In this document: positions 5,472 through 62,800 of the stretch, piece after piece
How the letters are laid out: each line of letters starts with the position of its first letter
How positions within the stretch are numbered: the stretch's first letter is position 1
DNA from: Pegea sp. RAD2-039
Taxonomy: Eukaryota; Chordata; Thaliacea; Salpida; Salpidae
NCBI GenBank assembly: GCA_034620365.1
Contig: JAQGEQ010000133.1
Location: 26,001 to 90,000 of the forward strand
DNA: 64,000 nucleotides
Direction: 5' to 3'
Position numbers and translations under genes: made by a program
Notes under the pieces: generated by a model
Told to the model about the DNA's origin: nothing
The model's input: the letters and a program-made list of their open reading frames with translations, nothing else
The model's database searches: none

Positions 5472-5486
5472 TCGCTAACTGGCGCT
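5472..5486 (+). promoter_or_regulatory. CTCF-like site, first in the window
   Basis: TCGCTAACTGGCGCT resembles the repeated CCGCTAxxTGGCGC core with one change in the first CC. It is a weak match and marks the start of the repeat region. Confidence 0.3.
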
Positions 5487-6414
5487 TAAAGTATTTTTAA
5501 AATTTGAAATTTTCTGCAATTTACAAAAATTTCATAATAAAATTTCTAAGAACAATTTTCATGTAATAACTTTCTTTGCAATATTTTTTTTAAAATCTAA
5601 AAAGCAATTATACATTTTTTATTTAAAAATAATAAGCAATCAAAGATAAAGGTTTTATAAAGAAGTTTATGAATACCAAGTGTCAATAATATAATTGCAA
5701 ACTTATTTATTTGTATATTGAATGAAAAGATTCAAGTAAAAAAATAGTATTTCTTTTGAAACTTGTTTTCTAAAATAGTAAACCACTACACATTAATAGT
5801 TAATTAAATTGTAATATTCATTATTTAAACTTGTACTTGCTAAGAAATAACTACATGTATAAAATAGCAATAGTATTTCACAGTGATTCACTAAATTCAG
5901 AATGAAAGTATTAGGATGAGATCTGTACCTAAGATGTTTAAAGAATTAAAAGTTATTTAATAAATATTACATCATCAGTATCTTTGATATTTGCACTGAT
6001 TAGTAATTTCTTTCTGATAAACAATTTAAACTGATCAAAATTAGCGGATAATGTTTTTCACTGAACTAAAAAACCTTTAAAAATGAATAATTTGTTTTCA
6101 GATTAGTTTCTTAACTATGTGAATAGTTTGAAAAAAAATTATACAACCTTCTAAGCAAGTCTATAAGACCAAAAGAGTCCTTAAGTAAACATAAACAATT
6201 TGTTAGGAAAATTAGTTAAACAACTTGTCAAGTCATTTTTCAATAAATTCTCAATAAATGGAATTTATTAAGATTATTAATTACAAAATTATTTTAGATT
6301 CAGATTTATGTTATTTTAATCAAAATATTTTAACTGCTACAGAGTGTATAAAATCAAATCAAATATATTTAAATGTATTATTTAATATCTTCTGTAAACT
6401 GAAAGTGATACCAA

Positions 6415-6450
6415 AAAAATAAATAATAATAATAAAAAAAAATAAATGAT
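6415..6450. repeat. AAT/A-rich microsatellite
   Basis: A run of A with interspersed AAT units (AATAATAATAAT followed by poly-A). It is low-complexity sequence within a larger repeat copy. Confidence 0.6.
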
Positions 6451-6483
6451 GTATTTTTGTAAGTGTTTTTTTGATAACAAACC

Positions 6484-6502
6484 GTCTAGCGCCAAGTAGC
6501 GG
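6484..6502 (-). promoter_or_regulatory. CTCF-like site (type 2)
   Basis: On the minus strand this reads CCGCTACTTGGCGCTAGAC, preceded by TTCCTTTT. It is identical in its core to the site at 21801, about 15 kb away and in the opposite orientation. The resemblance is to the CTCF core CCxCxAGxxGGCxx; function is inferred. Confidence 0.5.
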
Positions 6503-8049
6503 AAAAGGAAACAGTTTATTTGGTTTTTGTAGGTTTATCTTTTAGTCTTGATTTGTTTACACTATTTTGCACTATCTAGAAAATAAAGATTTAAAAATGT
6601 CACAATAACCCACGTACTATTAATTTTTAATTTTTTAAAATACTTAATTATTGAGTTGAACCAAGAAATAAAATAACTGTTTTTGATAGAAGCTCAGTTT
6701 ATTGATACTGAAATTTAAATTTAACTAATAACATCTTTATAAAAATGATATCAACAATAAATTTATTGATTGATTAAAGCCATCGAAAAAAGAAGCCCTT
6801 TAAATGACATTATTATGATTTATAAAATTTATAGGACTTTAGAAATCAAGTTAGAGGAAATCTTTTTATATTTATTTTTAATATATTTCATGTTTTTATT
6901 ATTTTACAGTAATTTCTTAAGCATATAACAACCAGTTAATTAAAACCATGAAAAGTAAAAAAATAAACAAATTAAACTTTTTTTCATTAAAAGTTTATGT
7001 CATTAAGCTAACACATAACAATCACTTACAGCAATCATCTTATATATCTGCATCTAATGAGCTTCCAGAGAATGAAAGTTGTTTTTAAAGAAGTAGTTTT
7101 AGTATTAAAATTATTATATAAAATTTAGAATGAATTTTAATGTTTGTTTTTTTTTACCAAATCCCAAATTGATAATTTTCTGATTTTATTTTATACACTC
7201 TCTAACTGTTTAAATATCTTGATTAGAATAACATAAATCTGAATCTAAAACAATTTTTTAATGAATAATCTTAATAAATTCCATTTTTGGATGTTGCTGC
7301 AGGTTTTTTGAAACAAATCTAGATAACTGTTTTTTTAGTGTATTTTTTAAAGGATAATTGATTACATTAGTTTTGTAAATATTTTTTAAACTGAGTTAAA
7401 CAGTTCACAATAGAGTTTCATTGTAACAAATTATTTCAAATGCCACATAAAACTTTATATAAATTATAGTGTCCATAATAAACTAAGATTTCATGTTTTT
7501 CAATTTTAATTTTATAAGAAAACAAACTAGATTTCCTACTATTTAAATAAATTTATAAAATTTCATAAAACTAATATCTGTAAATGATATATCTCTTTAA
7601 AAGTTTTTAATTAATTTAAGACAATCTGCTTTATCAAAAGCAACAGAAAGTTAACAACCTTTGGCGATTACATGAAGTTGTTTTATACACTAATTACATT
7701 TTACTTAATAAAAAAACAGCTTTAATTCGTTTAGATTTCTAGCACCACAAACAACAGACTTTAACTAATTTTATATATTCCGATTTTTCCCTTCCAGAAA
7801 CGTTTATTTAGTATAGACGGACGGTCAATTTAATTTAGAAACCGCTAAGTAGTGGTTGATTAATTTAAAAATGAATTGATAATTTGTTGAATACTTGTAT
7901 TTAATTGCATTTTTATTTAGAATATTTAATTTAAAAGAATAATATAGAAAAAGCTAACTAACTACCAAAATTTAAAGCTAATTTTTGTAAACTCTGTAGT
8001 GATCTAAACAAATAATTTTTTTGCTTTTACTTATTTTATAATTAACTAA

Positions 8050-8945
8050 TTATTATTTAATAATTTTGTAGACCGATTTCATTGTACTTTCTTACAAAAT
8101 GTTAAGCTCGTTTAGATTTCTAGCACCATAAACAACAGACTTTAAACATTTTTAAATTTTCCGATACTAATCTTTTAGTAATATCCTGTTAACAAGTACC
8201 TTCACAATTTAAATAATGTAGCAACGAATGACCAATTTCAAAACAAATACATTTTGTAAAAAAAATACTCATTAAAAATGCGAAACCGTATTTTTAGTTT
8301 TTGAATAGCCAAAAATACTCAATTAAGAAAATAAGGAATAATAAACCCAAAAATATCTAAAGGAAATTACAAAGAAAACTACTAATAGAAAACAGATTTT
8401 AACAATTTTAAGCAATTTATAGAAAACGCTCAATCTTGATATTCTTATGAGAAATAATCTTCGTTTGTGGTAACGATAGATTTTGTGTAGAAAAACTGTT
8501 GTTCTTAAAAAATGTTGACTTAAACGAATAAATCAATGATTAAAAAGTAAAAGAAAAATGTAACTAAAAAACATTTGATAATTAGATGCAAAAGTGCATC
8601 TTCCAATATAAAACAATAATACCTTACTATTTATACCGTAACATTTCGGTTATATATTATCTTCAATCAATCTTACGTTTGTGGTATCGGTAAATTTTCG
8701 ATGGCTTTATTCAATCAACAATGTTATTGAAAATATCATTTTTAACTGAACTTCTATCTTAACGGTTATTTTATTTCTTTATTCTTCTCAATAAATTATT
8801 TTTTTGTTTTCATTTATTGTTATATAATATTAAGTTTTAATTAAAACAGAAAATTAAACAATTTTATAGTGTAAATAGTATTTCATATAATAGAAATTAA
8901 TGGTACATTGGTCAGTGTGATTCTTTAAAAAACTTTATTCTTTTA
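8050..8945 (+). repeat. Direct copy of 20.87-21.73 kb
   Basis: Both copies run in the same order: an ACCGATTxxxTTGTACTTTC tract, a TTTCTAGCACCA tract, AACAACAGACTTTAAACATT, an AGTAATATCCTG tract, CCTTCACAATTTA, a GCGAAAxCGTATTTTTAG tract, the H1 hairpin (8585 here, 21396 there) and the TTTGTGGTATCG box. The match stops before the CTCF-like site, so the copy ends at about 8945. Confidence 0.65.
8585..8600 (+). other. H1 hairpin, perfect copy
   Basis: GATGCA-AAAG-TGCATC is a perfect 6-bp stem with a 4-nt loop, followed by TTCCAA. H1-type sequences also occur at 12499, 14257, 16341(-), 21396, 23247, 29607, 41059, 43072, 48844, 50815 and 57242(-). The stem often survives or carries single changes while the flanks have diverged. 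Confidence 0.7.
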
Positions 8946-9439: not shown

Positions 9440-9452
9440 GCGCCAAGTAGCG
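9440..9452 (-). promoter_or_regulatory. CTCF-like site core
   Basis: GCGCCAAGTAGCG is the reverse complement of CGCTACTTGGCGC, the core of the type 2 site. The flanking GTCTA and GG are lost. A weaker relative, AGCTGCCAAGTAGCAGT, lies at 8953-8969. Confidence 0.4.
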
Positions 9453-9889
9453 TAAAAAAAAAATTTTGAATAACTATTTTTCTAAATTCATTTCTGCTAA
9501 AATATAGAGAATAGAATGTTTTATAATTACCCAGACTGAAAAATGTGTTTAAAATGTCTGTTTTAAAATTACTAATTTCGCTACAACATTTTGTTTCATA
9601 AAAATTTGTAAACATTCGTTCATTTTATCAGTTACATGTTTTTACGTCAAAAAGTGAATGTTAAACATAAATTACTTTTATGTTGCTAATTGTAGCGAAT
9701 TGAAGCTCAAAGTAGTCTTAGTATTTATTAATCGATTTTCGTTAAAAGTAATTCAAATCCAAACAAATAATAACAGGTTGTTTACACTACAATAATTACT
9801 ACAATTTATTATAAATTGGCTACAATTTAGAGTTAGTGGGATCAATTTTAAACTAATAAATTTTGGTAAATTTTATATTGTTATAATTT

Positions 9890-10325
9890 TATACTAATTT
9901 TGTTTGTACCAATAATAAAGTTACAATAAAAATTGTTTTTCACCTTTAAGTTAAAATTTCTGTGTAAGCATTACTTGCCAACAAATAGTTTTTTATTAAA
10001 ATTAGAAAAAATATTGTATTTTAGCTTGATCCCACAAACTCTAGATTGCAACAACGTTTATAAGTAATGAAAAGTATACCTTTCAATCAATTCTTCATGA
10101 AAGAAAATTTGTTCTTTGGTACTTTTCCTTATTTATAAACTTTGCTGCAATCTAGAGTTTGTGGGATCATGCTAAAATACGATAATTTTTCTAATTATAG
10201 TAATAAACTATTTGTTGACAAATAATTCTCAAATAAACAGAAAATCTTAAACAGAAAGTTTGACTTAAAGGTGAAAAACAATTTTTATTATAAATTAATT
10301 ATTGGTAAGGACAAAATTAGCATAA
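9890..10325. repeat. Foldback element, arms about 190-210 bp
   Basis: The left arm (9890-10080) and right arm (10115-10325) are inverted copies centred near 10098. Matching pairs include CTAATTTTG (9894) with CAAAATTAG (10312), a tract containing TTTTTCACCTTTAAGT with its complement near 10265, the CCAACAAATAG box with CTATTTGTTGAC, and GATCCCACAAACTCTAGATT (10028) with its complement ending at 10168. Such a structure could form a cruciform or a long RNA hairpin, and resembles MITE-type foldback elements. A direct copy of the left arm lies at about 11380-11560. Confidence 0.65.
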
Positions 10326-10599
10326 CAATGTAATTAGTTCATAAGAAAATTTCTTACGGAGTTTTGTTTATGTCAGTTTTACATCTATTTTTACTTTGAT
10401 AATTAAATTGGAAATTGATTAGTAGTTTAATAAAACTATAGTCGACATAACTTTAAAATTAAATATTTAAACTAAATAAACTAATAGATAATACAATATA
10501 ATAAATATTATCTTTCACTTATTATTTTTCTCTACGTAAAGTTTAACATATACAATTACGAAAATTTATTGGTTTAAACTTGTTCCCACAAACTCTAGA

Positions 10600-11040
10600 T
10601 TGCAACAACGTAATAATAAATTAAACATTTTTTAAATTATACATATTTTAATAAATAAACAAATATTTGATATACATAGTTTTATTTTAAACTTGACAAA
10701 GAGAGCATTATTTATAAACAAAAATTACCATTAAAATTTTAATTTGATCCCACAAACTCTAGATTACCACAACGTTATATATAGTCAAAAGTAAATTAAT
10801 AATTTTGATTACTACTTACAGCTAAATAGACAGTTAATGTTGGAATTTTGGAGTTGAAATAGTTTTTCAACGAATCTGTTATTTAACAAAAAGTTGAGTA
10901 ACTGAGTTAAGTCACTTGAGTTACCTTTTATACAGAAAATGAAGTAAAACTAATTTAGGTAAAAAGTTTTTTTTCATTTTTTTAAAACCTTACTGATAAA
11001 TGACATATTATTTGAAAAAGTGTCTAACTTTCAAATAATT
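10600..11040 (+). repeat. Direct copy of about 27.09-27.56 kb
   Basis: Shared order: TTGATATACATA, AGTTTTATTT, AGAGCATTATTT, ACAAAAATTACCATT, the GATCCCACAAACTCTAGATT box followed by ACCACAA, the GGAGTTGAAATA hairpin and GAGTTAAGTCACTTGAGTTAC. The two copies differ by scattered substitutions and small indels. Confidence 0.65.
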
Positions 11041-11379: not shown

Positions 11380-11600
11380 AAAATTATTTTTCACATTTAA
11401 TTCAAATTTTCTGTATTATTTGAAGTAGTATTTGTCAACAAATAGTTTATTATTAAAATTAGAAAAAATATCGTATTTTAGATCCCACAAACTCTAGATG
11501 GCAACAACGTTTTTAATTAATGAAAAGTAAATCTTTCAATCATTTCTTCATGACAACAAATCGTTTACATAGTTTTGAGTTGAAATACTTTTCAACGAAA
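11380..11600 (+). repeat. Copy of the foldback arm with GATCCCAC box and GTTGAAA hairpin
   Basis: The order is the TTTTTCACxTTTAAxTxAAATT tract, a TTGTCAACAAATAG box, TTAGAAAAAATATCGTATTTTA, the GATCCCACAAACTCTAGATG box (11481), AATGAAAAGTAAATCTTTCAAT and the perfect hairpin GTTGAAATACTTTTCAAC (11579-11596). It is a clear example of the most frequent module. Confidence 0.65.
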
Positions 11601-12901
11601 CTTCATTCAGTGAATCAGTAGAAAATTTTAAGTTCCTATTTTCTAAAAAAAATTGACAAAAAACTTGATTAGTTTAAAGTTATTTCTTTTTCATATCGTT
11701 TAATCAAAATAATTATATTTCTTCGACAAGCTTCATTTATCAAAGAGTTTAATATCTTCAGTATTCATTCCTTACAATAAGATTTGACTTATAAGATGGT
11801 ATCGTGAGATAACACATATATTGATATAAAAACATCTTCTGATCAAAAGATTAAGGCAATTATAAGTCATTAAGGAACTAATTTTATATTTTTGAATTAA
11901 TTGGAAGAACATTTTAATTATTTTTGACCGACACGCAGTAGTTTTAATGCAGTTCACAGATTTTAGATCTATTTATTATTATAGAGAGATTTAAGAGTTG
12001 TTGAAATTATAACTCGCATTTTCAATTATTCATTTTTGATTCAAAGAAACGATTTATGATAAAACAGTCTTTAAAAACGTTTAATTAAAGTTTTAGATGT
12101 TTCTTAATGATCATGAAGAATTTAAACAATTTTATTTTTATAAAAATTGTTTAGATAGCATAAAATACCCAAAGAAGAAAGTAAGGAATTTAATAAATGA
12201 TGAATCCTAAAATATTTAAAAGAAATTAAAAAGAAAATTACTAACAGCAAACAGAATTTAAAAACCTTCGAGCAAATTAGAGAAACGCTCAATCCTGATG
12301 TTCTTATGAAAAACAATATTAGTTTGTGGCATCGATAGATTTTGGGCATAAAAAACGCTTGTTTGTTAAAAAATGTTGATTTAAATGCATAAAAAAAATT
12401 AAAAGAAAATTAACTTAGACTTGTTTAGAAAAAATATGTAGACATCAAGCAATCTCAAGATCTTATTTTTACCTTGGAAAAAACTTTCTTGATAATCAAA
12501 TGCAAAAGTGCATCTTCCAAATTAATATTGTTATCCAGACAAGTAATAAAATGATACAACTTCTTCGTAAGCCTTACGATTATATAATATCTTCATTCAT
12601 TCTTATGTTTGTGGTATCGGTAAATTTTTCGATGGCTTTATTCAATCGATAAAGTTATTGTTGATATTATTTTTATAATGATACATTAGTTCAAATTAAT
12701 TTCAAGTATCATTAAACAGAGCTTCTATCAAAAACAGTTATTTTATTTCTAGGTTTAACTCAATAATTAAGTATTTTATAAATTAAAAATTAATAGTACA
12801 TTGGTTAATAGGACTATTTAAAATCTTTATTGTTTTAAATAATATAAACAAATCAGGACTAAAAGATTAACCTACAAAAAACAAGTCGACTGTTTCCTTT
12901 T

Positions 12902-12922: not shown

Positions 12923-13617
12923 TTTGTTATCAAAAAACACTTTAAAAAATACATCATTTATTATAATTATAATATTTTTTAGTATTACTTTAAGTTTAAA
13001 GAAAATATTATATAACATATTCAACCATTTTTATTGTCTTGGGAATCTGGAAAAGGTTAGTAAGTCATATAGTTCCAATTCTTAAAAATTAATTTTAAGT
13101 TTTGTAAATTGATATATCAACGGCAAAAAATTACAATTTTTAAAACTTAAGAAACAAAATAATATTATTTGATATTTCATCTCATGATAGATAAAAAACA
13201 GAATTGCCGAGCTGATATTTAATGAATTCAATTAAATAATAAACGTCTTTTTAACTAATATTAACTATAATTAACTTGTTTATTATTTAAAGTTTCGTTG
13301 TAAAGTACTTTAGCTCCAAATTAAAAAACTTTACAATCCTTTACTAAAGATTGAGTTTTATTTTACTTTTCATTTCTTATAAACGTTGTTTCAATCTGAA
13401 GTGTATGGGATCAAGCTCAAATGAAATTAATTTTATAATTTTATTGATAAGCATTTTGTTGACAAAAATGTTATAACAGAAAATTTGATTTAAAGTCGAT
13501 AAGAAAATTTATTATAAGTTTACTATTATACAAACCAAATTAGTTTAATTTTTCTTATCTAGTTGTATTTAATTAAGATTTAAAGTCATTCCTACTTGGA
13601 TGATTAAAATTAAAAAC

Positions 13618-13667: not shown

Positions 13668-14623
13668 TTTTTAATTGAGAGTACTATAAGACTCAGAGAT
13701 TATATTCGTTTGATCTTCAAAATGAATTACAAATTTAGAAATCATACAAATCATTAAAGTAATTTTTACAGAGAAAATCAAATTATTAGATATTTATTAA
13801 TAGCTAAAATATTATATTTTCTAGAGAACGCAAACGTTCGAAGCAAAAAGTTAAAATTAATGGGTTTTTAACTATTTTGAAAGAATTAATTTAACCTGCG
13901 TACACTATTCTTATTATCAAAATTACATTTGGTTTTAACTATTGAAAAATATATTCTTTAACTGTTAAAATTGATCTTAGTAATTATTAGCTTGAATTTT
14001 ATATATACAATTTATATTTGTTAAATTTGTGTTTATAGTTGCTGTATTACGATTTATTTAATTACGATTAACTGTTTACACTTAACTAAGAACTATTGTA
14101 TTACTCACAATTAATTTACAACTTTAACAAACTTCATGATATTTAATGGTGAAATTAAATGTAGATTATTTGCTGATGAGACTTAACTAAATTTTATTTT
14201 GTAGGAAATACAATCTCTGTATTTCTTACTTATGAAAAATATTTAGTTGATAAAAAGAGGCAAAAGTGCACCTTCCAAATATTGCACTTTTAAATGAATT
14301 TGGTATTTCAGTGAAAAAGGATTTTACTAAAAATTAAATATAAGCTGTATAACCTTATGTCTGTGGCTTCAGCGAAAATTAAGTATACTTTATTCTTTTA
14401 AAATGAAATTCAACAAAATAGTTAGAAAAATTCTTTTTAAATGTAGAAAAATTACAAAAAAAAGTTTATTCAAATCTTTTTTAACAATCAAGAATGAAAA
14501 AATATTAATTTGCTTCGTTGCAAAAACATGAACCAACCTACAAATTGTAAAATACATTAAAGTGGTTCGATAAAATACTAATTAAGTTTCATAATATTTG
14601 TTGTTGTAACCAAAATACGATAA

Positions 14624-14637
14624 CCGCTAGGTGGCGC
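14624..14637 (+). promoter_or_regulatory. CTCF-like site (type 1, best match)
   Basis: CCGCTAGGTGGCGC, preceded by AAAATACGATAA and followed by AAGGAGTAA. The 14-mer fits the published CTCF core CCxCxAGGxGGCxC at all fixed positions that I know. The same 14-mer is at 19369, with one-base variants at 19858 and 55248. Confidence 0.55.
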
Positions 14638-15249: not shown

Positions 15250-16400
15250 TTGAACAATATTGGTCAGGAAAGAGCTTATCAAGAAAATTATAAAATTAAT
15301 TTCATTTGAACTTGATCCCATAAACTTCAGATTGCAACAACGTTTATAAGAAATGAAAAGTAAAATAAAACTCAATCTTTCGTACAGGTTTGCAAAGTTT
15401 TTAAATTTGTAGTTAAAGTACATTACAACGAAACTTTAAATAATAAATAAGTTTAATAACTTTTATTTTTATTTGATACAAAATATGTCTGTAAACATGT
15501 TGTTGGTATTATGACAGATGTTTTATTATTTGAAAACTTTTTATTCAACAAAGCTAGTATTTTGCTTTTTCTTATCATTTAATCGAAATCATTAAATATC
15601 AGTTCGGCAATTCTTTTTTTTTCTATCTTGAGATGAAATATCAAACAATATTATTTTGTTTCTTAAGTTTTAAAAGTTGTAATTTTTTGCTCTTGATATA
15701 TCAATTTACAAAAAGTAAAATTAATTTTTATGAATGGAAACTACCAATTACCAACCTTTTCTTGATTCTTAAAAAAACGTAAATATTTAAAATTGTCAGA
15801 ATATATTTTCTTTAAACTGAAAGTAATACCACAAAAATTTTAAAATTATAAAAAAATGATTAAAAAAATTTTTTAAAGTGTTTTTTGACAAAAAAAAACC
15901 GTCTAGCGCCAAGTAGCGGAAAAAGAAACAGTTGATTTGTTTTTTGTAGATTTATCTCGTAGTTCTTACTTGTTTACATTTTCTAAAACAATACAGTTTT
16001 TAAATAACCACACTGACCAATGTACTATTTATTTTAAATTTTTAAAATACTATTTACACCATAACACATTCAGTTTAAATTAAAATTTAATATTATGTAA
16101 CATTATAATTACAACTAACAATATTATTCATTGAGAAGAATAAAGAAATAAAAAAAACCGTTTAGATAGAAGTTCAGCTAAAAATGATATTATCAATAAC
16201 ATAATCGACTGAATAAAGCAATCAAAAAATTTACTGATACCACAAACATAAGATTGAATGAAGATAATATGTAACCGTAAAGCTTACGGGGAAGTGGAAA
16301 CGATTAGCCACTGATTCTTCTTCTACCTATTTATTTGAAAGATGCACGCTTGCATCTAATTATCAAATATTGTAATTTTCTTTTAATTAATTTTTTTTAT
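15250..16400 (-). repeat. Inverted partial copy of the A unit
   Basis: Read on the minus strand it repeats 12.49-13.45 kb: H1 (16341-16356), the TTTGTGGTATCAG box (about 16240), a type 2 CTCF-like site (15901), the ATATCAAG tract and the GATCCCATAAACTTCAG box (15309). With copy A1 it forms an inverted pair flanking a spacer of about 1.8 kb. Confidence 0.7.
15901..15919 (-). promoter_or_regulatory. CTCF-like site (type 2)
   Basis: GTCTAGCGCCAAGTAGCGG, identical over this length to the site at 6484 and the reverse complement of the site at 21801. It faces the + sites at 12902 and 14624 (convergent arrangement). Confidence 0.5.
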
Positions 16401-20619: not shown

Positions 20620-21010
20620 CATTAAAGCACAGATAGTTAAATCGTCAAAAATAAAATTTCAAATTAACAAATTTTTTTAAATAACATTGAAGTTTAAATA
20701 AAGTATAATTTTCATAATGAACTGAATTTTTAATGTTATCTGCAAATTTTATGTATTTAATTAACATGTATATCATTGTAACACTTCCTCAATTGGCATT
20801 GTCTGAGATTTCAAATGAACTTAAACAATTTGCTTCATTAAAAGTAAAAGAAGTTAACATGTTTTGATATTACATGCAGTAATTTTGTACACCGATTACT
20901 TTGTACTTTCTTAAAAAATGTTAAACTTTTCTAGCACCAAAAACAACAGACTTTAAACATTTTTAAATATTCCGATTTTAATCTATTAGTAATATCCTGC
21001 TAACAAGTAC
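20620..21010 (+). repeat. Direct copy of 32.64-32.99 kb
   Basis: Shared stretches include TAAATCGT, AATTTCAAATTAAC, TTGTAACACTT against AGTAACACTT, CAATTxGCATTGTCTGA, TTACATGCAGTAATTTTGTA and a TTTCTAGCACCA tract. It joins directly to the segment shared with 8.05 kb. Confidence 0.55.
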
Positions 21011-50814: not shown

Positions 50815-50830
50815 GATGCAAAAGTGCATC
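50815..50830 (+). other. H1 hairpin, perfect copy
   Basis: GATGCAAAAGTGCATC preceded by GATAAACA and followed by TTCCAAATAT, then a GTTTGTGGCTTCATC box about 90 bp on. It is 1.97 kb downstream of the H1-like sequence at 48844. Confidence 0.65.
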
Positions 50831-51259
50831 TTCCAAATATAGCATTTATAAATACTGGATTTGGTATTTCAGTGAAAAAGGATTTGTAAATGTTATATAT
50901 AAGCTGCATAAGAACTTAAGTTTGTGGCTTCATCAAAAGTTAAGTATACTTTAATCATTTAAAATGATATTCAAAAGATGATTACGATGTTAACTAAAGT
51001 AATTCTGTTTAATTTATTAATTTAATTATATAAAGCTTTTTGTAGTTTTTTTGAAGATTACATTAAATATAGAAATTATAAATGGTTGAAAGATGCAACA
51101 ACTATTAAAACTTATATGATAATTTTAAAATATCTTCTGTAGTGAGTGAAAGGGATAGAATAATTATATAATGAAATAATTTTTTTAAATAGTTAAATGT
51201 TTTTCTATTTCTATTAAATAGATGAATGTCTTGCTTGGTGACTACGTAAGGAAAAATTA

Positions 51260-53780
51260 AACTTTGTTTTAAATAAATATAAATACTTAAGTCTCAACAT
51301 TTTTTTATTCAATTTCTAAATTGATTTAGTTTTGCGTATCTTGTACTTTTATTAAATTTGCATAAATATTGTTACAACTTTTAGATTATTGTTCGTTTGA
51401 ATCTGTTTGTATTGATTTTATGAAAGAATGTTGAAATTAATTAATTGTGAAAAGTTTTCGAGAATCTTGTAAGTAATTTAAGAAAGAATTTGTCTGAAGT
51501 TGATACCAACTGAATTCTAGATGGCGACAAAGTAATAAATAATTAAAAACTCACGTTGTTTGTTTTAAAAATTATCAGTGGCTACTTAAAATTTAACTTG
51601 GAGTCCAAATACTTTTAACCGAAAATTCAAATAGAAAATAATTTGAATAACTTCTATTTTTTACGAAAATCATATATATATTAATATACTTCTTCTATTA
51701 ATTGAATTGTATAAAAAACTATTATCACTACGAAATATGCAAAATGCATTCTTACATCTATTTATTTTACAATTACATATAATAGTAAGAAATCTAAAAA
51801 TTTTACAATTCTTTTATTTATTAGCTTGAATTTTAAACTTCTGTTTTTTCAAACAACGTTTTAGTTCATTTTATTTTGTTTACTTTTTACAAACAATATA
51901 AGAAAAGTCAAATTATTTATAAACATTTATAAACAGTTTATTTACATTACTCTTAAAAAGCAAGTTTTTGTAGTAAATTTTTCGTATGTTTAAATATTTT
52001 AAAACAGCTTTAATATCTTCAATAAACGACTTGTTGGATACAACCTCTAAAATGTTGAATCTTTTAGTAAAGCCAAAATATTTTGAAGAAACTTGTTTAT
52101 ATAACAGAGCAGAAAAAGATTTTGCTACAAAGTATTTAAATTAATTGTTTGTAAAGTATTTTATGTGTAAGACTTTTCATGTTCTGTTTTTTTATGGAAT
52201 TTAGTTTTAATTAAAATTTATTGGAATAATCAAAAACGACTTTTTGTCCGAAGATCGACGAATTTGGATACTGAAAAGCCTGATTTAGCCATTTTTAATT
52301 TGTATTTTTTAAATTATCTAATTACGATTTTCTCTGTATTTATCTGCAAATAAACTGCAGATAAAACAAGAGAAGAAACAGTTTTCAGTAATCCAGAACT
52401 CAATTTTATTTATTAAGTTACTATATTATTTCTATATTATATTATTATACCTTAATTACTTTTATTTCACTAATTTCAACGTTATCAAAACATTTATTTA
52501 AATCTTTACAAAAAAACTTTGTTTATCAACAACAAATTAATATTAAAATTGTAAAAACAAATTTGTTTAAGATTGACCCCACAAACTCTAGATTACGACA
52601 AAGTGATAAACAAGGAAATTAAAAAAAAATGCTAAGCTAAATATAAACGGTCTTTTGAAACCTTATTTGGAGTTGAAACATTGTTCAACGAAAATTCTAT
52701 CACTAAAGAGAACTTCAGTATCTATTATGTAGAAAAAACGACATAAAAATAATTTCATTTACTTTTGTAAAGACTTATCTGATAATGTGACAAGACGTTC
52801 AAAAAAGTTAACTTTCAGTTAATCAAAAAAAATTATTTATAGCATCACTAATATCTGCTTCATATTGAGTTTTATTTGAAATTTCTTTTCTTATTAATAA
52901 AAATAATTAACCTTAAAACCTATAACTATTCTTAATTTGGTAATTACTTTAAATAAAAACTTATATTAATGAATAATATATTATAATAAAAATCTAAAAT
53001 TAACACTAAAAGAAATAACTTCAGTAATTTTAATTTTTATGATTGAATAAATCAGTTGTTTTGCTACTTTTACTTTATTTTGCATCTGTTTATCAAAAAG
53101 GTATTTTTCAAAATAAGAAATAATAACAATTTGCTTTTACTGAGATTCTTTGATAATTTAAAATTCTGCTTTTTAATATTAATTTTCTTTTTATTTATTT
53201 ACTTTTTTTATTTACTCAGAAAATATTAGTTTAAATTAGAAAATAAAATTCATAATTCTTCATAACTCAATGTTTCAAGGATATTTGTATCACTAAAACT
53301 CTAACTTGAAGAATCTTCCTAATATTAATTAATTATTAAACTGCTTAGTATTAGACATCTAAATTTTTGGTTACTTTAAATCAACTTGCCTTAAATCTAA
53401 TTTAATAAATCTATTACTGGAAGCCTTACTTATTATGATTCTTAATTTTAGCCAGAAAACAACTTAAATGTCTTCTGATTACTTGCTGAAAAGCATCATC
53501 TGATGACTTCACCTCTAAAAACCAAAAATTATCAAAACGTTTACTGATGTCATCTTTTTCAAATTTCTTTTAGTATTAGTAAAATAAAACAAAAATTTAC
53601 AACTTGTAAAGTATTCTATTTAATTTAAATTTAATTTAGTTTTCAGTTTTAATAGATTTTTATGAATATTTCAAGTTTGATGGAATTACTGTATGTTTTA
53701 AAGTGTAAGGTTGTAAAAGAACATTTTTAAAAATAGAAAATAGTTAAAATCATTAAAGTCTGATTTTTTCTTCAGATGTA
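51260..53780. other. Gene-free part of the desert with dispersed boxes
   Basis: I see GATCCCAC-type boxes at about 51505 (with ACTGAATTCTAGATGGCGAC) and 52571 (CCCACAAACTCTAGATTACG), and a degraded H2 hairpin near 52673. A segment at 51330-51440 matches 59505-59610 directly and 57790-57900 in reverse. No coding frame. Confidence 0.4.
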
Positions 53781-55450
53781 CTTGCTGATTAATTTTATTT
53801 TTTAATCTAAAGTAGAAGTAGAAATACTAATTTTGCTGAAATAAAAGTTTTGTATTTCTAAACATTCTATCACGTTGTCAGTATCGATGTTTACAAGAGC
53901 TTTGAACTAAATTATTTTGTTGTTGTTTGTTGTAAAGAATAGAAACTGAAGTTATTCTACTTAATTAATATTTCGTTGAAAGGTAATTCAACTCCAAATT
54001 TCAAAATGATTCTCACACGACTGTAGCGTCCAGTTTGAATGTACTTTATATTATTTATAAACTTTTCTGAAATCTAGTGTTTGTGGGATCAAGTTCAAAC
54101 GATTAAATTTTTCTAGTTTCAATAATAAACTTCTTGTTGACAGATAATGCTGAAATAAAAAATCGATTTTTAAGTTGATAAGAAAATTTGACTATAAATC
54201 TATTTTCGTAGTAAACAAAAGTAGGTTAAGATTATAAATAGATAAAAGTAAGTTTGTTACGAAGTTTAATTTAATTTAAGGTTACTTTAATGCTTTAAAA
54301 GAAATTTATTTGTCGCGATTGTTACAATTTTAGGTTTTTGAAAAACTAAGTACAATTTACTTACTAAAAATTGTGAGTATTATAAGGTTTAGAAATTCTG
54401 TTGGTTTGATCTTCAAAATATTTCTGGAAATAGTTTCAGAAAAGTTTTTTTGAAAAGTAAAAATAAAAACTATTCATTACGAGTTGTATTTTCTTTTTCA
54501 TAATTAACCGTCTAGCTTTTCAAGCAATTTTTTTGAAACAATAGTCAAAATATTTCTTTTATTTACATAATGTGAATACAACTAGGTTATATTTTTCAAT
54601 CTTTTTTAGTTTTTATATATTTAGTTATTATAAATAAATCTACATTTGACTTCAAGAAATATTTTTAAAAGAATTTTACAATTACATTAAAATATATATA
54701 TAATATTCAAAGTAATCAATAAAAACTTTTCTGTGACCAAAATTAGTATTTCTAAACACATAATAAACAAGTAATTCTAGTTAAAATAGATAAATAAGCA
54801 GCAAAATTAAAATTTATATTTAATTAATTACCAATTATACGTTTATATTACCATATATTTTGTTTCTGTGATTATTGATTTAAATAAATTTAAAGCAATC
54901 TTGTAATCTACAAATAGAATTATATCACTTAACCAAAAATTTTTTTGCACTTTTATTAGAAATTGTGTTCACTGTGGAAACTATTTTTTACTTAAACTTT
55001 TATGTGGCATTTGGAATAATTAGTTAAATTGAAATTAAATTTTTAACGATTTAACTCTGTATATGAAATATTTACAAGAAAATCCTTATCAATTATTTTT
55101 TAACAATAAAAAACATAAGGAAAAAACATTAGTTTGCTTTGTAGCACAAAACATGCACCAATCTACAAATTGTACAGTTCATTTAAGTGGTTCAATAAAA
55201 TACTAATTAAGTTTCAAAGATTTGTTGTTGTAACCAAAATACGATAACCGCTATGTGGCGCTACGAGTGAAAAGATCAAATTTTAATTTATGATTAGAAA
55301 ATTAATAATAAAGATTTTTTGGTAACTATCTAATTTATTCATAATAATAAAGTTACTTATTTAGAAGCAACTTTGATTTTGTGGATATGAATTCAAGCAT
55401 GTCACCCTAAAGTGAAAACAGTTTTGTACCTGCAATAAAATAAATAAATA
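53780..55450 (+). repeat. Repeat copy B2, paired with 17.06-19.44 kb
   Basis: Direct duplicate of copy B1, about 36 kb away, lacking its middle 0.8-1 kb. The first 160 bp are among the best-conserved long stretches in the desert, so this duplication may be relatively recent. It ends in a CTCF-like site and the GTGAAAACAGTTTTGTAC segment. Confidence 0.75.
55248..55261 (+). promoter_or_regulatory. CTCF-like site (type 1, one change)
   Basis: CCGCTATGTGGCGC, the copy B2 counterpart of 19369, with G to T at position 7 of the core. Confidence 0.45.
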
Positions 55451-56809: not shown

Positions 56810-57380
56810 ATTAATTTTTCTTGCGTAGTCACCAAGCAAGACAAAATTCTATTTAATAAAAAGAGAAAAATAATAAACCATTTTGAATTTGTTTTTTCAT
56901 TAGATAATAATTCTATTCCTTTTACTCACTACAAAATATATTTTAAAATTTTGATATAAGTTCTAACAGTTGTTGCATCTCTCAACCATTTATAATTTCT
57001 ATATTTAATGTGATCTTCAAAAAAACTAAAAAAAGCTTTACATCATTAAATTAATAAATTAAACAAAATTACTTTAGTAAAAATCGTAATCATCTTTTGA
57101 ATATCATTTTAAATGATTAAAGTATAAATAATTTTCGATGAAACCACAAACATAAGGTTATATCCAGCTTATAAATAACATTTAAAAATTCCTTTTTCAC
57201 TGAAATACCAAAACCATTATTTATAAATGCAATATTTGGACGATTCACTTTTGCATCTGTTTATCAGCTAAGTAGTTTTCATAAGTAAGTAATACGGAGA
57301 TTGTATTTTCTTTAAAATAAAATTTAGTTAAATCTCATCATCAAAAAAATCTACATTTAATCTCACAATTAAATAGAAAA
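56810..57380 (-). repeat. Inverted copy of about 50.70-51.26 kb
   Basis: The minus strand carries the H1-like sequence (57242), CTTATGTTTGTGGTTTCATC, GATTACGATTTTTAC, ATAAATGGTTGAGAGATGCA, GTAGTGAGTAAAAGGAATAG and GTCTTGCTTGGTGACTACG, matching the forward order at 50.7-51.26 kb. Confidence 0.6.
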
Positions 57381-57559: not shown

Positions 57560-59810
57560 CATAAAAAAATGGTAACAATTTATTTAACTGATTTATTAAT
57601 TAAAATTTCGTTGAAAAATATTTCAACTAAAAATATCAATCAACACAAACTACATCAGAATAATCCTTCGTTAGTTTTTCATTATTTATTACTTTGTCGC
57701 AATATAGAGTTTGTGGTATCAAGTTCAGACGAATTCTTTTTTAAAGTTGTTATAAAATCGTTAGAATATATCTACAATTAAATAATTTACTTTTTCCTTC
57801 ATAATAATTAATACATACACATTCAAACTTACAATAATTTAAAACTTGTAACAATGTTTATGTAATTCTAATAAGTGTATAGTATACCCAAAAAAAGTAA
57901 AATGAAAAACTGAAAAAAATACCCTTTGAGTTTGAACAAATGATGAAAAAGTTCTTCAGAAATTTAAAGTTTAGAGTTTTGGGAAAAAAAATTTCATATT
58001 CTTCAGTTTGTAAACTTGTTTTGTTATCTCTTATCTAAGTCATTTGGTTATAATAATTTTAAATACGTTTAGCTTAAAGGTAAGCATGAACAATCTAATT
58101 TTTATCTAAACTTGTTACTATTAAAATAAATAATTTATTAAAAGAAGAATTTTTGAAAATCATCTTTATTTAGAAACGAAATGATTTAGAATTTGCTTTA
58201 TATCAAAATATCAGATGTTAATAAGAACTGCATCATTTCTGTGATAAAATTTGTGAAAACATAAACCAGCAAGTTGAATATCGGTGACATTTCAGTTTAA
58301 CCTTTGATTGTTAATAAAATAGAAAGGTAGTTTAATAAAAAAAGTATTTATTGACATATTTAGTTTATAATACAAATACACGCTGAAGTAGAAAAGTTTT
58401 GAAAACTCTTCACACAAATATATTAGTTGTTTGATTGTCAATAATTTGAAATTAGTCAAAGAAATTATGTTTACGAAACAATTTAAAATTTTGAAAATTG
58501 TTTGTCTTTTAATCCAAACTTAGTAAGTTATCATATTTTAAAGAAATCTTTTATAAAATTAATTGATGTTTTCATCACACAGCTAGATTATCGTAAATTC
58601 AATAAATGTTAAAACTCTTTATCTTTATATAGAGACCTTTGAGATATCCAGAACATTTATACTTTCAATTTAAATTATGAAGTTTAGATTATTTACATGA
58701 TTAAAATATAATAAACAAACTTAACTTAGTTTGAAACTTTTTCAACTTTTGTTTAATGATGTTATTTACTTTCACTTTCTAATCTTATTCACGACCCATA
58801 GCATCTTACCTCAGTTCAAATCTTACTGCCAAGAAATAGATTATTATAAATTATTTTCATCTTTTGTGGCTTATATTGAACGTTTTTGATGCTCTTTTTA
58901 CTTCAATAATTGTATTTACGTAATCTTACTAGCTTAAGCTACTTGATTAGTGACTGGCAAGCTGAAAAACCCAAAAATATATTTTTGCTATCTATATATC
59001 GCGCTTTCTAGCGGATAGAACATCTCAGTTACAAAAAGTAAAATTTTGTAAACTAAAATAAATAAAATAGTCATTTCACACAAATTTTAAGTTGAAATAA
59101 GAATAATATTCTAACAATAAAATTTTCTTAAAAATGTCAATTGATAGAAGGATGCATATTATTTGCTAAAACCGCAATCTTCTTTCAAATAAAAAAATGA
59201 TTTGAATGATTTTTTTATTTTTCTAATCAATCAATAAGTTTTTTTGTATTAGGGAAAGATAAAATACTTGAAGTTTTCGAAGAATTTTTTTTCATGATTT
59301 TAAAATCAATAATTTGGGAATTACTTTCGTGACTTCTTTTAAAATCAATAATATCAAAAATACTCTTAAAAATTTTATTGACTTTTTATCAATTATTTAT
59401 TCTAAATATTTTACCTTTTTTAATAATAGTATGTGCAAATTTTAAATTGCGTAATGTCTTCCTTGCTGAAAACTCATAACATTTTTTTCTGTTTTTCAAT
59501 TGTTTTTTTCTGTGTATACTATACACTTATTAGAATTACATAAACATTGTTACAAGTTTTAAATTATTGTAAGTTTGAATTTGTATGTATTAATTATTAT
59601 GAAAGAAAAAATAAATCATTTAATCATAGATATTTTCTAAAGCTTTCATAACAACTTTAAAAAAAGAATTCATTTGAACTTGATACCACAAACTCTAGAT
59701 AGCGACAAAGTAATAAAGTATAAAAAAACTAACTTAGGATTACTCGGAAGTTTTGAATAACGAATTTTTTGAGTTGAAATATTTTTCAACGAAATTTTAA
59801 TTTGTAAATC
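57560..59810. repeat. Foldback pair, arms about 310-340 bp, spacer about 1.6 kb
   Basis: 57560-57900 and 59500-59810 are inverted copies. Both hold a perfect H2 hairpin (57610, 59773), the box ATAGAGTTTGTGGTATCAAG against GATACCACAAACTCTAGATA, a TAATTAATACATACA tract, an AAACTTACAATAATTTAAAA tract and a GTGTATAGTATAC tract. The spacer contains no supported gene, only a weak CTCF-like site at 59001. Confidence 0.65.
59001..59014 (-). promoter_or_regulatory. Weak CTCF-like site
   Basis: The minus strand reads CCGCTAGAAAGCGC. The outer bases match the type 1 core but the central GGTGG is lost. Confidence 0.25.
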
Positions 59811-60274
59811 AGTTATATAAACTGTTTTCTTTTTTCACGAAAAATCACATAAAAATTTTAAGTAACAATTTTATTTGGTTGTTTTAAACTTGATACTTGT
59901 CTTATGACAGAATATTAGTTTTAGATTAGTACTTTCAATTAATCAAATAAAATTATTTACGGCATCACCAAAACTGCTTCAAATGTAGTTTCGTTTGAAA
60001 TTTTATTTCATATAAATAAAATATATATAAATATACTAATTAATATATTTAATTTATAATTAATTAGTAATTAATATAAATAAAAATAGTTGTTTCAATT
60101 TTCATTTTTATAATAGTAGTATTTTAAGTTTGTTGTTTTACAAAAATATTGAAGTTTATATTGCAATAACAAAAGTGATTAATTTCAAATTTTTCAATTT
60201 TTATTGTTCTATTTGCAACATTTTTTTAATTAGAATTTTTTAATTTCAGCTTAATAAAATAGCTTAATAACAAA

Positions 60275-62160
60275 ATCCTGGATTAGTGCTTTTCTCCTTA
60301 TCGTGATAAATCAGTGTTTAACCCACAAACACTAGAATCAAAATACTTTTTATTAAGCATTTTTTTAGGAGTATCTACCATTTGCTTGCAAAGTCGATTA
60401 TGCTAGATCTTTAATTTGAAGTCGACTAAATGTCGATATAACTATTACTAATGTATCTAAAAATGTTAGTTTGTAATTCATAAATTTATATCTGATAGAT
60501 TCTCTTTTGTTGTATAATAATCTTTAACTTTAGTTATTTGAAAGTGTAATTTTATCAAGCTATAACTTCATTATTATTAACAACAACCTTATTTGATTTA
60601 ACCAATTAAGTGTATTTGTGATTGACAGAAAGAAGTCAAAATTAAGAATTATTAAAGAAAGAATAGAACTACTTTAAAAGTAAAAGTAAAATACAATCAA
60701 TTCTAAATCAAATCAAATTTATAAAACAAACTATAATAAGAAGATGAACAAAGTGAATTTAGAAGTTTAATTTTCAAATTCATCAAAATTACTTTGCTAA
60801 GAATTAATTTACAATGGAAATCTTTATTTTATAAATAATAATCTTAAAATTTTCATATTAATTTGTAACAATAAAGAAAAATTAAAATTCTATTTTAATT
60901 TACAAAATAATTTTAACAAAAACGAATAAAAAATTTTTAATTTTTACTTTTTTTGTAATCTACAGTGGAAAAACAAATTTAATTAATCTATTTTAGGTTA
61001 AAATTATTATTTTTATGGTTTTGATACAAACGTTTTAAAATGTATCATCTTGTACAAAATATATAAAATTATTTTTAAAATGAAAAACATCATCCAATTT
61101 ATATTTAAAGGTGGTTTTCTTGAAAGTTAGTATTTAATGTTTATTTTTTTGCTTTAAAAAAGCTCATTTTTAAGTGTTTAAATTATAATAATTATTATAA
61201 ACTTTTAGTATTACGATTGTAGATGAGGAATAATTAAGCTAAAAGATAAACATCTGAACTTTTAAAAAATGTTACTAACAGAACAATAAACATTAAAAAC
61301 GATTGTTAAAATTTTGCTATAAAGTAGAAAGTTCAACATTTTGGTAAAACAACAAGATTAAAATATAAAAATTAAAAATATTTAGTCAAACATTTTCTCT
61401 TGGGGTTGTGAATTGTTATGGTTATAAAATTTTTATAAGAAAAATCTATAATTAGCTTATTTTTTTACCTTTAAATAATTCACTTTGCGGTCATATAAGT
61501 TCTTATATCATTATAAATTATTTATTAATTATATAAAATAAATTTAATGTTCATAATAGCTATAATTTTTAAAATTATTTATATATATTTTTATGAAATA
61601 AAGTTATCAGATGAAACTACATATGAAACAGATTTTAGTGATACTCTTAAAATTTTAAAGTAATTATTTCAAAGCTAGAAAACCTATTCAAGTTTTTTCA
61701 CATTATCCTAGAACTGTTTAGATAAATGAAATAAAGTTTTGACTTAAATCAATTTGATCGTATTATCTGTAAATAATAGAAGTTCACTTTATTCAACTTA
61801 CTCACTAATTGTATTTTCCATAAAAAGTTATTCAAGTCCAAATTATAACTTCAAGCAAATTATAACCCAAGATCATTAACTGATCATAAGATTGAAATAT
61901 ACATCTTGTAAATAATATATAATTATTATCAGAAAATGTTTAAGAGATGAATGCTTGCTTTATTGTTATCAACAAGGTTATACAACTTCTACTTATTATC
62001 TTAGGTTTGTTGTATCGTTAAGTATTACGAGTACTTTAATCAATTTATAACATTAATGAAAATATTATTATTATAATAATATTATTGGTTCAATTTAAAA
62101 TCAAGTATCAGTAAGATAATTACTTTCCTTTTTGTAGTTTTGAAAAAATTAAAACTTTTT
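60275..62160 (+). repeat. Repeat family C, longest forward copy
   Basis: Reverse complement of 24666-26310, and directly similar to 42.1-42.5 kb at its start. It ends in the GTTGTATCGTTAAG box that begins family D (62.0-62.8 kb), so C and D overlap here as they do not at 43 kb. A GTCGACTAAATGTCGAT hairpin is at 60421. Confidence 0.7.
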
Positions 62161-62800
62161 CATGGGATTACTTAATAATATCATGATCAGTAAGATGAGT
62201 CATAGTTCTAAAATATTACCTTTATAGTCAACCCAACTTCAACATTAAATGTTTAAGCTACATAAACTAATAGATAATACAAAATAATAATTATTATCAT
62301 TTACTTTTCTTTGTCAAAAAAGAGTTTAACACAAAAAATACAAAATCAAAATTACGGATACTTTTTCGTTTAAAATTGATCCCACAAACTGTAGATTGTA
62401 ACAAAGTTGTTATGACCAAAAAATTCTGAGAAGTTCTCAGATGATTGTAAACAATACATTAGAAACCCAATTTGAAGTTGAAATACTTTCAACGGAAATC
62501 GATTAAGTAACTAGAAGACTACCTTGAGTTTCTATTCTCTGAAAGTAGCATCATAAAAGTGATTTAAGTTGAAAATTAATTTTATTCATGTAAACAAATA
62601 ACTGATAATTTGACAAAATCTTTACAACTAGAAAAAAAAGTTTTAACGAATTTAGTATTTTTAAAATAGAATTTTTAAATGCATTCTTAAGTCTGAATAA
62701 TTAAAAACTTTCTACTTTGGATAGTTTCAGTAGAAATGAGTTTTAAAAACAACTTTACAAAACATTTTTTTAAAATTTTCATTTTCTGATAGTAACCAAT
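62000..62800 (+). repeat. Repeat family D, second copy
   Basis: Direct duplicate of 43165-43970. The GATCCCACAAACTGTAGATT box is at about 62380 and the GAAGTTGAAATACTTTCAAC hairpin near 62475. Its CTCF-like site has decayed. Confidence 0.65.

Follow-up and report, generated by a model that had tools for sequence, protein, structure and literature searches.

The window analysed here, a stretch of 64,000 nucleotides corresponding to positions 26001-90000 of contig C267, carries a C2H2 zinc-finger gene at the left edge of a "desert" (positions 5472-62800) whose G+C content is 0.19-0.25 in 2-kb bins. The zinc-finger gene provides the only open reading frame (ORF) of at least 120 amino acids (aa) with a start codon in the window, and the desert itself has none; further stop-to-stop frames of 100-128 aa exist. 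Coding exons were rejected on that ground as the identity of the short recurring islands that a preliminary description had listed in this region. The desert is probably a gene array whose products would be small RNAs of the Sm class, made by RNA polymerase II (Pol II), with 5' ends that change fast and look guide-like. At the level of sequence its anatomy, that of an array of small nuclear RNA (snRNA)-type genes, is well supported; transcription, Sm binding and a guide role are what we infer for the predicted RNAs.

The GATCCCAC box and, read as its reverse complement, the TTTGTGGTATCG box were listed as two islands but make up a single promoter element, a proximal sequence element (PSE) consisting of CCACAAAC and about 12 further bases; their recurrence stands, their separateness does not. 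The forms GATCCCACAAAC... and CGATACCACAAAC... have CCACAAAC in common, followed in many copies by AGATT four bases on. Counts of 12-mers, self-alignments and units refer to 300,289 known bases ("300 kb"), made up of C267 and six 10-kb samples of other contigs that were picked for holding TTTGTGGTATCG. In this set CCACAAAC occurs 153 times against a median of 2 for its 70 permutations, about 14 of the copies lying in zinc-finger exons by a crude rule. In the genome searched (105.7 Mb, 387 contigs) TTTGTGGTATCG occurs 106 times against 5 for its reversed control. GATCCCACAAACTCTAGATT, with up to three mismatches, is found in 17 copies against 0.01 in shuffles. These counts lie far above chance, and the islands do recur in order. 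A TATA-like word starts 25-29 bases after the first C of the core (155 starts for 153 cores, overlapping words counted apart), and a TATA word by rule is present at 100 of 151 exact cores.

The same core is found at the snRNA genes of this genome. U6 and U2 genes were located with Rfam models, their promoters not being consulted (15 and 19 matches), and the upstream sequence was read at 9 and 11 loci, respectively. Exact CCACAAAC is present at 10 of the 11 U2 loci, L052 being the exception. Among the U6 loci the core is exact at L034 and L036 and carries one or two changes at L037, L038, L039, L041 and L053; the sequence at L035 does not extend far enough to judge, and the low-scoring copy L040 lacks the core. 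The pattern CCACAAACN{17,22}TATAWA matches 738 places genome-wide against 47 for the reversed control, some places being counted twice. At 19 off-array loci, picked from 100 places listed for that pattern, Rfam named U1 at 4, U5 at 2, U3 at 2, U4 at 1 and, below its cut-off, U7 at 1, with 9 loci left without a name; one further match, to Flavo-1, was taken as chance. Chosen by pattern, these 19 loci therefore show the element's membership and not its frequency in snRNA genes, which is shown by U2 and U6. The U7-like locus, L072 (C59:134715-134940), is a probable U7 snRNA gene (31.8 bits, cut-off 34) with a CCACAAAC-type PSE.

A matrix built from 19 dereplicated snRNA-type promoters without their TATA scores 33 sites of the desert at 10 bits or above, versus 1.4 in simulations, and at 16 bits 14 sites versus 0.1 expected; on the left flank (1-5471) it finds 2 sites at 8 bits and none at 10. 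Scanned with a matrix from array copies that lie outside it, the window has 51 sites of at least 8 bits versus 0.2. The array matrix finds 152 sites on C267 (83 plus, 69 minus; median spacing 1065) and 10-15 on each of the six samples, bringing the promoter sites in 300 kb to 221. Conversely, applied to U6 and U2 promoters the array matrix gives some of them low scores (down to -3.9), which makes array and snRNA promoters relatives and not copies. The counted start offset is 54-57 bases after the first C of the core at the U1, U2, U3, U4 and U5 loci and about 62 at U6, and the TATA-like word stands at +25 to +29 in the array, at +28 in U2 and at about +32 in U6, few genes being compared. The predicted start is initiator-like: of 43 dereplicated units, 29 have Y at +55 and 26 have R at +56. 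Compared by sequence, the PSE and TATA of the array are of the same kind and spacing as those of this genome's U2 genes.

Mostly at +75 to +105 from the PSE core stands an Sm-type word (ATTTGGA, ATTTTGGA, ATTTGAA, ATTTTGAA and similar, called by consensus match alone), with a hairpin directly after it. An Sm site followed by a 3' hairpin is the established plan of U1, U2, U4, U5, U7 and spliced-leader (SL) RNAs. Under a strict rule (at least 6 pairs) this pair of features lies behind 73 of 151 exact cores versus 3 of 349 mirror stretches of all cores; under a loose rule it lies behind 27 of the 51 window promoters, versus 5 when the opposite side is searched and 199 among 2000 stretches taken at random. 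The stems vary by subfamily (AGATGC/GCATCT, GTTGAA/TTCAAC, GTCGAC/GTCGAT, AACTGA/TCAGTT, AACCGC/GTGGTT and others). Among 42 dereplicated units there are 17 distinct stems, a few of them doubtful, whose own arms form 6 of 6 pairs, as they were selected to do, versus 2.69 of 6 for swapped arms, with full pairing in 4% of swaps. A MAFFT alignment from which 5 of the 42 hairpins were dropped as doubtful, and to which 6 from outside the desert were added, left the 3' arms unaligned; the stem comparison therefore uses the arm swaps, whose 17 stems include the doubtful ones. The earlier suggestion that the islands give structured RNA fits most of them, with stems that keep pairing while their sequence changes, and most of the placeable hairpins first described are the 3' ends of predicted RNAs. 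The hairpins are indeed dyads, as was claimed for nearly all islands; the promoter (PSE and TATA) is not. The plan is common to unrelated single copies (C267 15517, 20469, 123912 and 126817) and to loci on other contigs (L057-L060, L071 and L073). Loci L057 (C12:503900-505300) and L058 are tandemly clustered, one copy about every 1.3 kb, and represent another gene kind with a CCACAAAC-type PSE, an Sm-type site and a 3' hairpin, and have no Rfam match.

The units and promoters of the window are given below in window coordinates, each unit from PSE core to the end of the 3' hairpin, with the position weight matrix (PWM) score, the TATA and Sm offsets and the stem length. The 26 units and one weak unit were called by a rule slightly unlike that behind the count of 27 among 51.

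7745..7857, plus strand: unit, hairpin ACCGCT..AGTGGT, Sm-like ATTTAGAA; PWM 22.1, TATA +27, Sm-like +88, stem 6
8584..8684, minus: unit, hairpin AGATGCA..TGCATCT; PWM 43.2, TATA +28, Sm-like +77, stem 7
10750..10871, plus: unit, hairpin GTTGAAA..TTTCAAC; PWM 44.5, TATA +26, Sm +95, stem 7
11485..11596, plus: unit, hairpin GTTGAAA..TTTCAAC; PWM 36.8, no TATA word by rule, Sm +88, stem 7
12498..12614, minus: unit, hairpin AGATGCA; PWM 40.3, TATA +28, Sm +92
16240..16357, plus: unit, hairpin AGATGCA; PWM 46.0, TATA +28, Sm +93
17255..17366, minus: unit, hairpin GTTGAA; PWM 39.3, TATA +26, Sm +87
23246..23359, minus: unit, hairpin AGATGTA..TGCATCT; PWM 32.2, TATA +26, Sm +89
26149..26264, minus: unit, hairpin GTCGAC..GTCGAT; PWM 24.1, no TATA word by rule, Sm +92
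27223..27355, plus: unit, hairpin GTTGAAA; PWM 42.4, TATA +25, Sm +106
29505..29622, plus: unit, hairpin GATGCA; PWM 37.4, TATA +28, Sm +94
31821..31932, minus: unit, hairpin GTTGAAA; PWM 40.0, no TATA word by rule, Sm-like +86
33967..34079, minus: unit with decayed hairpin; PWM 10.0, Sm +88, stem 5
37234..37343, plus: unit of another class, hairpin around ATCGACAACTTGTCGGT; PWM 12.2, Sm +85, stem 6
41058..41173, minus: unit, hairpin AGATGCA; PWM 34.4, TATA +28, Sm +91
42149..42262, plus: unit, hairpin GTCGAC; PWM 26.7, no TATA word by rule, Sm +90
43547..43657, plus: unit, hairpin GTTGAAA; PWM 46.3, TATA +28, Sm +87
46076..46186, plus: unit, hairpin GTTGAAA; PWM 40.0, TATA +27, Sm +85
50814..50927, minus: unit, hairpin AGATGCA; PWM 35.6, TATA +26, Sm +89
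52579..52689, plus: unit, hairpin GTTGAA; PWM 48.5, no TATA word by rule, Sm +86
53975..54086, minus: unit, hairpin GTTGAA; PWM 39.3, TATA +26, Sm +87
57610..57716, minus: unit, hairpin GTTGAAA, Sm-like ATTTTTA; PWM 43.3, TATA +27, Sm-like +82
59686..59790, plus: unit, hairpin GTTGAAA; PWM 44.9, TATA +33, Sm +78
60323..60437, plus: unit, hairpin GTCGAC; PWM 27.2, no TATA word by rule, Sm +91
62382..62493, plus: unit, hairpin GTTGAAA; PWM 44.3, no TATA word by rule, Sm +88
63785..63901, minus: unit past 62800, hairpin ATCGACA..TGTCGAT; PWM 16.3, no TATA word by rule, Sm +91
43077..43181, minus: promoter with weak Sm/hairpin; PWM 33.5, TATA +28, stem 5
10032..10067, plus: promoter (PSE and TATA), convergent with that at 10164 (minus); PWM 46.7
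10129..10164, minus: promoter (PSE and TATA), Sm-like/hairpin behind it doubtful; PWM 44.5
10586..10621, plus: promoter; PWM 47.8
9804..9839, minus: promoter; PWM 33.1
13373..13408, minus: promoter, variant core CCATACAC; PWM 30.5
15318..15353, plus: promoter, variant core CCATAAAC; PWM 37.0
21480..21515, minus: promoter; PWM 39.8
22358..22393, minus: promoter, variant core; PWM 26.8
28508..28543, plus: promoter, variant core; PWM 31.1
30019..30054, minus: promoter, variant core CTACAAAC; PWM 21.8
31552..31587, minus: promoter, variant core; PWM 28.4
46420..46455, plus: promoter, variant core; PWM 23.5
48412..48447, plus: promoter, variant core; PWM 21.8
48925..48960, minus: promoter, core CCACAAGC; PWM 41.3
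49931..49966, minus: promoter, variant core; PWM 20.2
57144..57179, plus: promoter; PWM 41.4
61977..62012, minus: promoter, variant core; PWM 19.8
8126..8161, plus: weak promoter-like site; PWM 14.0
14331..14366, minus: weak promoter-like site; PWM 14.6
18149..18184, plus: weak promoter-like site; PWM 8.7
20937..20972, plus: weak promoter-like site; PWM 12.8
24832..24867, plus: weak promoter-like site; PWM 10.2
29796..29831, plus: weak promoter-like site; PWM 8.8
32943..32978, plus: weak promoter-like site; PWM 9.8

The two convergent promoters at 10015-10181 together make a long inverted repeat; any transcripts from them would be mutually antisense.

The predicted RNA begins with a 5' part of about 33 nt that diverges on average about 1.55 times as much as the flanks, although unevenly. 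In dereplicated alignments of two classes (19 units in A, 24 in B) the 60-column block from TATA to Sm averages 0.48 identity in either class, and elsewhere blocks range over 0.55-0.76 in A and 0.48-0.72 in B; the far-upstream blocks of B are equally low (0.48 and 0.50). Where flank identity is 80-90%, the 5' part is 0.745 identical versus 0.843/0.853 in the flanks, and above 90% it is 0.881 versus 0.947/0.945. In a first set of 36 disjoint pairs, from which flank divergence below 1.5% or above 30% was excluded, 5' divergence is 0.139 versus 0.079 and is the higher in 25 of 36 (sign test 0.029, Wilcoxon 0.0014). The 10-bp divergence profile of this set stands at 1.6-1.8 over +60 to +90 and at 0.18 over +90 to +100; its outermost upstream bins also reach 1.66 and 1.87, ascribed to alignment ends. 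A second, partly overlapping set of 51 disjoint pairs (exclusions below 1.2% or above 30%) gives 0.114 versus 0.074, with 0 of 3000 random-window draws as high, and 0.0995 versus 0.0578 at A/T sites alone; the PSE (0.050), TATA (0.057) and Sm site with hairpin (0.042) all lie below the flanks (0.074). Divergence is thus not uniform along the units. The G+C content of the 5' part is 0.278 versus 0.205 and 0.217 in the flanks. The notion that G+C-bearing islands are simply easier to see in decayed copies finds no support, because the A/T-rich TATA and Sm columns are conserved and the G+C-richer 5' part diverges faster than the flanks. The 5' excess may reflect diversifying selection, sequence exchange among copies or a local hotspot of mutation.

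The basic unit, from promoter to hairpin, measures about 100-135 bp and lies within duplicated segments, in place of the one fixed compound unit first proposed. Self-alignment, another check proposed at the outset, shows diverged direct or inverted copies within the window for all 1-kb bins at 6-35 kb and 40-63 kb, except 58-59 kb, and no copies elsewhere in the window for 35-40 kb. C267 is mostly covered by diverged self-copies, with identity mostly of 65-98%; one 5-kb bin is just 21% covered. Single alignments of duplicated segments reach about 2.5 kb, or about 5 kb where two adjoin. Inverted pairs are the longest within the window (27699-30184 with 48282-50771; 30180-32609 with 45384-47828). 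Among copies C and G are conserved at 0.69 and A and T at 0.84, so copies decay towards A+T; some G+C-rich words nevertheless recur almost unaltered. The Sm and hairpin word of class A is found at 74 exact places genome-wide versus 0 for the reversed control, all of them on 11 contigs (C64, C98, C104, C109, C136, C261, C267, C274, C275, C286 and C287). Together these span at least 1.68 Mb, the lengths of seven contigs plus the highest positions seen on C98, C104, C109 and C275, and they need not be array throughout. Site density ranges from 0.63/kb on C267 to 1.15/kb in the six samples, the latter biased upwards by their choice by core word, so that by extrapolation there are perhaps 1,000-1,900 promoters over the 11 contigs. 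Matches to PSE and TATA on further contigs (C12, C23, C40, C60 and more) indicate that snRNA-type genes are numerous there too.

Other sequences are interspersed in C267. Members of the C2H2 zinc-finger family, with 84-bp finger repeats and exons that contain CCACAAAC, lie at window 3278-3907 (minus) and on C267 near 114455-115174 (plus), 227795-228133 (minus) and 236093-237010 (minus). Gln-, Glu- and Arg-rich repeat frames of coiled-coil appearance, without a Pfam match, lie on C267 (L010:4610-5284, plus; L025:8011-8667, plus), and one such frame adjoins zinc-finger repeats at 227795-228667. A tandem array of about 125 copies of the 20-bp unit GGTACAAACAGGGTTTAGGA occupies 231659-234161, in a stretch of higher G+C. 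Similar stop-to-stop frames occur at window 36447-36830 (minus; 128 aa) and C267 191713-192081 (minus; 123 aa), the former without a Pfam match and inside the stretch that lacks copies within the window.

Among the remaining islands, the CTCF-like core GCGCCANNTAGCG is a separate conserved element, with 41 copies in 300 kb in about five sequence contexts, a count made without a control. The CTCF consensus is CCASYAGRKGGCRS; variants with CC or TC as NN read CCGCTAGGTGGCGC/CCGCTAGATGGCGC, near that consensus, from which the commonest variant (AG) departs. Around 116 promoters, 17 of the 27 matches to the TTGTTGACAA box, a possible distal element, fall 50-60 bases upstream of the PSE; for half of the dyad CCGTAAAGCTTACGG, 15 of 17 matches fall in the +30 bin, downstream of TATA and ahead of the predicted start. 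As to the cAMP response element (CRE) and E-box of the initial list, the CRE TGACGTCA occurs 30 times in 300 kb and not once within -300 to +200 of the 116 promoters examined, 7 of its 12 window copies lying at 1517-1979 (463 bp), outside the array and left of the zinc-finger gene, and CACGTG is present in 2 copies. Positions in the window are as follows.

5473..5485, minus strand: CTCF-like core GCGCCANNTAGCG, exact pattern
6489..6501, plus: CTCF-like core, exact pattern
9440..9452, plus: CTCF-like core, exact pattern, 592 bp 5' of the PSE at 10032
14625..14637, minus: CTCF-like core, exact pattern
15906..15918, plus: CTCF-like core, exact pattern, 334 bp 5' of the PSE at 16240
19370..19382, minus: CTCF-like core, exact pattern
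21802..21814, minus: CTCF-like core, exact pattern
55249..55261, minus: CTCF-like core, exact pattern
10212..10221, no strand assigned: TTGTTGACAA/TTGTCAACAA box; other copies start at 11432, 13456, 22447, 31636, 36362, 46362 and 50013

The array is closest in plan to this genome's own U1, U2, U4, U5 and U7 genes, with which it shares the CCACAAAC PSE, the TATA-like word and the predicted start 54-57 bases after the core, as well as the Sm-type site (which reads AGTTTTTGGA in U2) and 3' hairpin. It differs from Sm-class snRNA genes in a predicted RNA shorter than most (about 45-80 nt), in its 221 promoter sites in the 300 kb, in its fast-changing 5' part and in having no Rfam family. Rfam gave no match in the window at gathering score. 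Relaxing the limit to E 5 adds just two models: MIR5512, on a long inverted repeat, with 49 bits against a cut-off of 139, and snoR13, with 29.1 bits against 60. The preliminary description knew of no element with this set of modules, which holds in that no Rfam family matches the array units, although the modules themselves are parts of snRNA genes. MicroRNA precursors were considered and rejected, the sole such match being far below cut-off and identical with the convergent promoter pair. U7 has a short 5' antisense part, an Sm-like site and a 3' hairpin, and normally one or few genes with a fixed target; its special Sm site is AAUUUGUCUAG. The array resembles U7 in length class and order of parts but has Sm sites of the canonical kind (AUUUGGA/AUUUUGAA/AUUUGAA). 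A genome search for U7 gave 16 matches with a best E of 0.4, a limit at which 12 of 14 control genomes also match, and its first look misses short genes, since L072 is absent from its matches. Human snRNA-like Pol III units (PMC3472747) are likewise non-canonical small RNAs with snRNA-like promoters; those are of Pol III type 3, whereas the spacing in the array is nearer to that of U2 than to that of U6, as far as the few genes compared go.

Several other explanations bear on the same features. The array could consist of precursors of PIWI-interacting RNAs (piRNAs) like the snRNA-like 21U loci of nematodes, of independent or ancestral origin, in which the 5' part is the small RNA and the Sm site and hairpin are cut away or left over from snRNA 3' ends. 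According to PMC7917550, C. elegans has more than 15,000 piRNA loci, thought to have evolved from snRNA promoters and with Integrator at their 3' ends, and nematode type I loci have many individual promoters, Pol II, A+T-rich signals and short capped products. The desert shows individual snRNA-type promoters in A+T-rich, gene-poor arrays, with predicted 5' products that change fast. Of the three Argonaute-like loci found in the genome, one contains an exon of PIWI type, with Piwi-like protein 1 as best match (E 9.2e-15), and another an AGO-type exon (argonaute-3, E 4.9e-31). However, 21U loci are not known to need an Sm site or hairpin, both of which the array retains, and the Ruby core of the nematode loci, CTGTTTCA, shows no enrichment: its 16 copies in 300 kb give it rank 84 among 840 permutations. 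The telomere repeat is TTAGGG, seen on four contigs (C108 and C125 begin with it, and C139 and C342 probably end with it), where that of nematodes is TTAGGC; this and the three Argonaute-like loci do not fit a C. elegans-like nematode, so that an independent origin may apply. Precursors of piRNA type are rather unlikely overall. A search for COX1 gave no match. SL RNA genes, donating their 5' part by trans-splicing, would also be Pol II, Sm-class and often arrayed, as are SmY RNAs. An SL family should have a splice donor in nearly every member, and in 41 5' parts there are 0 GTAAG (shuffles 0.98), 0 GT[AG]AGT (0.56), 2 GTATG (1.26) and 6 GGT[AG] (4.25), which is no lower than chance but gives no common donor; a donated leader should moreover be conserved, whereas the 5' part diverges faster than the flanks, and the window matches no SL or SmY family in Rfam. 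With no common donor, SL RNAs are hardly credible here.

The duplication landscape lends itself to a selfish or decayed repeat, in which snRNA-derived gene copies spread by segmental duplication and the conserved blocks record recent activity; the self-copies that cover most of C267, and the 24 of 51 promoters lacking a clear 3' part, speak for it. Uniform decay does not, however, give a pattern in which the PSE, TATA and Sm site with hairpin fall below flank divergence and the 5' part above it in the same pairs. The single long ORF of the window is a zinc finger, no transposase was found among the frames scanned with Pfam (4 proteins and one more), and no shared terminal repeats were seen by eye at the ends of 8 printed copies, which are nested and broken. 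A repeat of this kind is judged improbable, to about the degree of the piRNA-type precursors. An array of protein-binding sites of insulator or dosage type, its dyads bound as DNA, would accommodate the recurring CTCF-like core, which lies 300-301 bp 5' of a same-strand PSE in 8 of 41 copies and 585-601 bp 5' in another 8. Against it, 16 of the 41 cores have no exact PSE core within 700 bp, the hairpins change sequence yet pair and lie 3' of an Sm-type site in the orientation given by the PSE, and the PSE is of the snRNA-gene type, making such an array very unlikely. The dimeric protein sites proposed earlier are correct in that protein sites are present, but as a PSE and TATA promoter without a dyad.

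Certain observations also weigh against an array of Sm-class small-RNA genes. By the loose rule 24 of the 51 window promoters have no Sm site and hairpin, and about 5 of the other 27 may have theirs by chance, given the opposite-side and random-stretch rates; 51 of the 151 exact cores have no TATA word by rule. The snRNA-matrix test is not fully independent, because its promoters were placed by best array-matrix match and most of those other than U2 and U6 were picked by core. Pairs with 70-80% flank identity show no 5' excess (0.756 identical; flanks 0.761/0.766), pairwise tests are modest (32 of 51 pairs in the second set; sign 0.09, Wilcoxon 0.014), and much of the excess is owed to certain pairs whose 5' segment has been almost wholly replaced, others being identical there; L031:4752 and C267:241874, for example, differ by 3.8% in the flanks, with 16 of 36 5' bases aligned. 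No unusual structure was found in the 5' parts. No target was found: a genome-wide search with two 22-nt 5' words led to array contigs only (10 and 5 places), and isolated matches of 40 5' parts in 300 kb number 14, within the shuffle range (mean 7.65, maximum 27).

Taking the desert as an array of Sm-class small-RNA genes, SNAPc- and TBP-type factors would recruit Pol II at the PSE and TATA, and transcription would start about 56 bases after the PSE core, an offset as in U1-U5 and U3 genes. The RNA would be about 45-80 nt long, its 3' end formed near the hairpin, probably by Integrator, and an Sm ring would assemble on AUUUGGA/AUUUUGAA. The variable 5' part may serve as an antisense or recognition sequence. 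With such a role for the 5' part, selection would keep the common parts of the ribonucleoprotein (RNP) and favour new 5' ends. The array would grow by segmental duplication in both orientations, with copies diverging afterwards.

A bolder extension is that these are a new class of small guide RNP RNAs, with perhaps more than 1,000 individually promoted Sm-class RNAs, 5' segments under diversifying selection, and a recognition repertoire analogous in logic to piRNAs but housed in snRNP-type particles; this is tentative, and rather doubtful. No title or abstract start describing such an array was found in the literature, in a search that did not cover most subscription journals. If transcribed, the array would constitute an undescribed and very large Sm-class RNA family with a built-in variable part. 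It would also bear on the origin of nematode piRNAs from snRNA promoters, as an instance of snRNA-type gene arrays with changing products in a genome that does not look nematode. What appeared as a repeat desert would become a gene array with testable transcripts.

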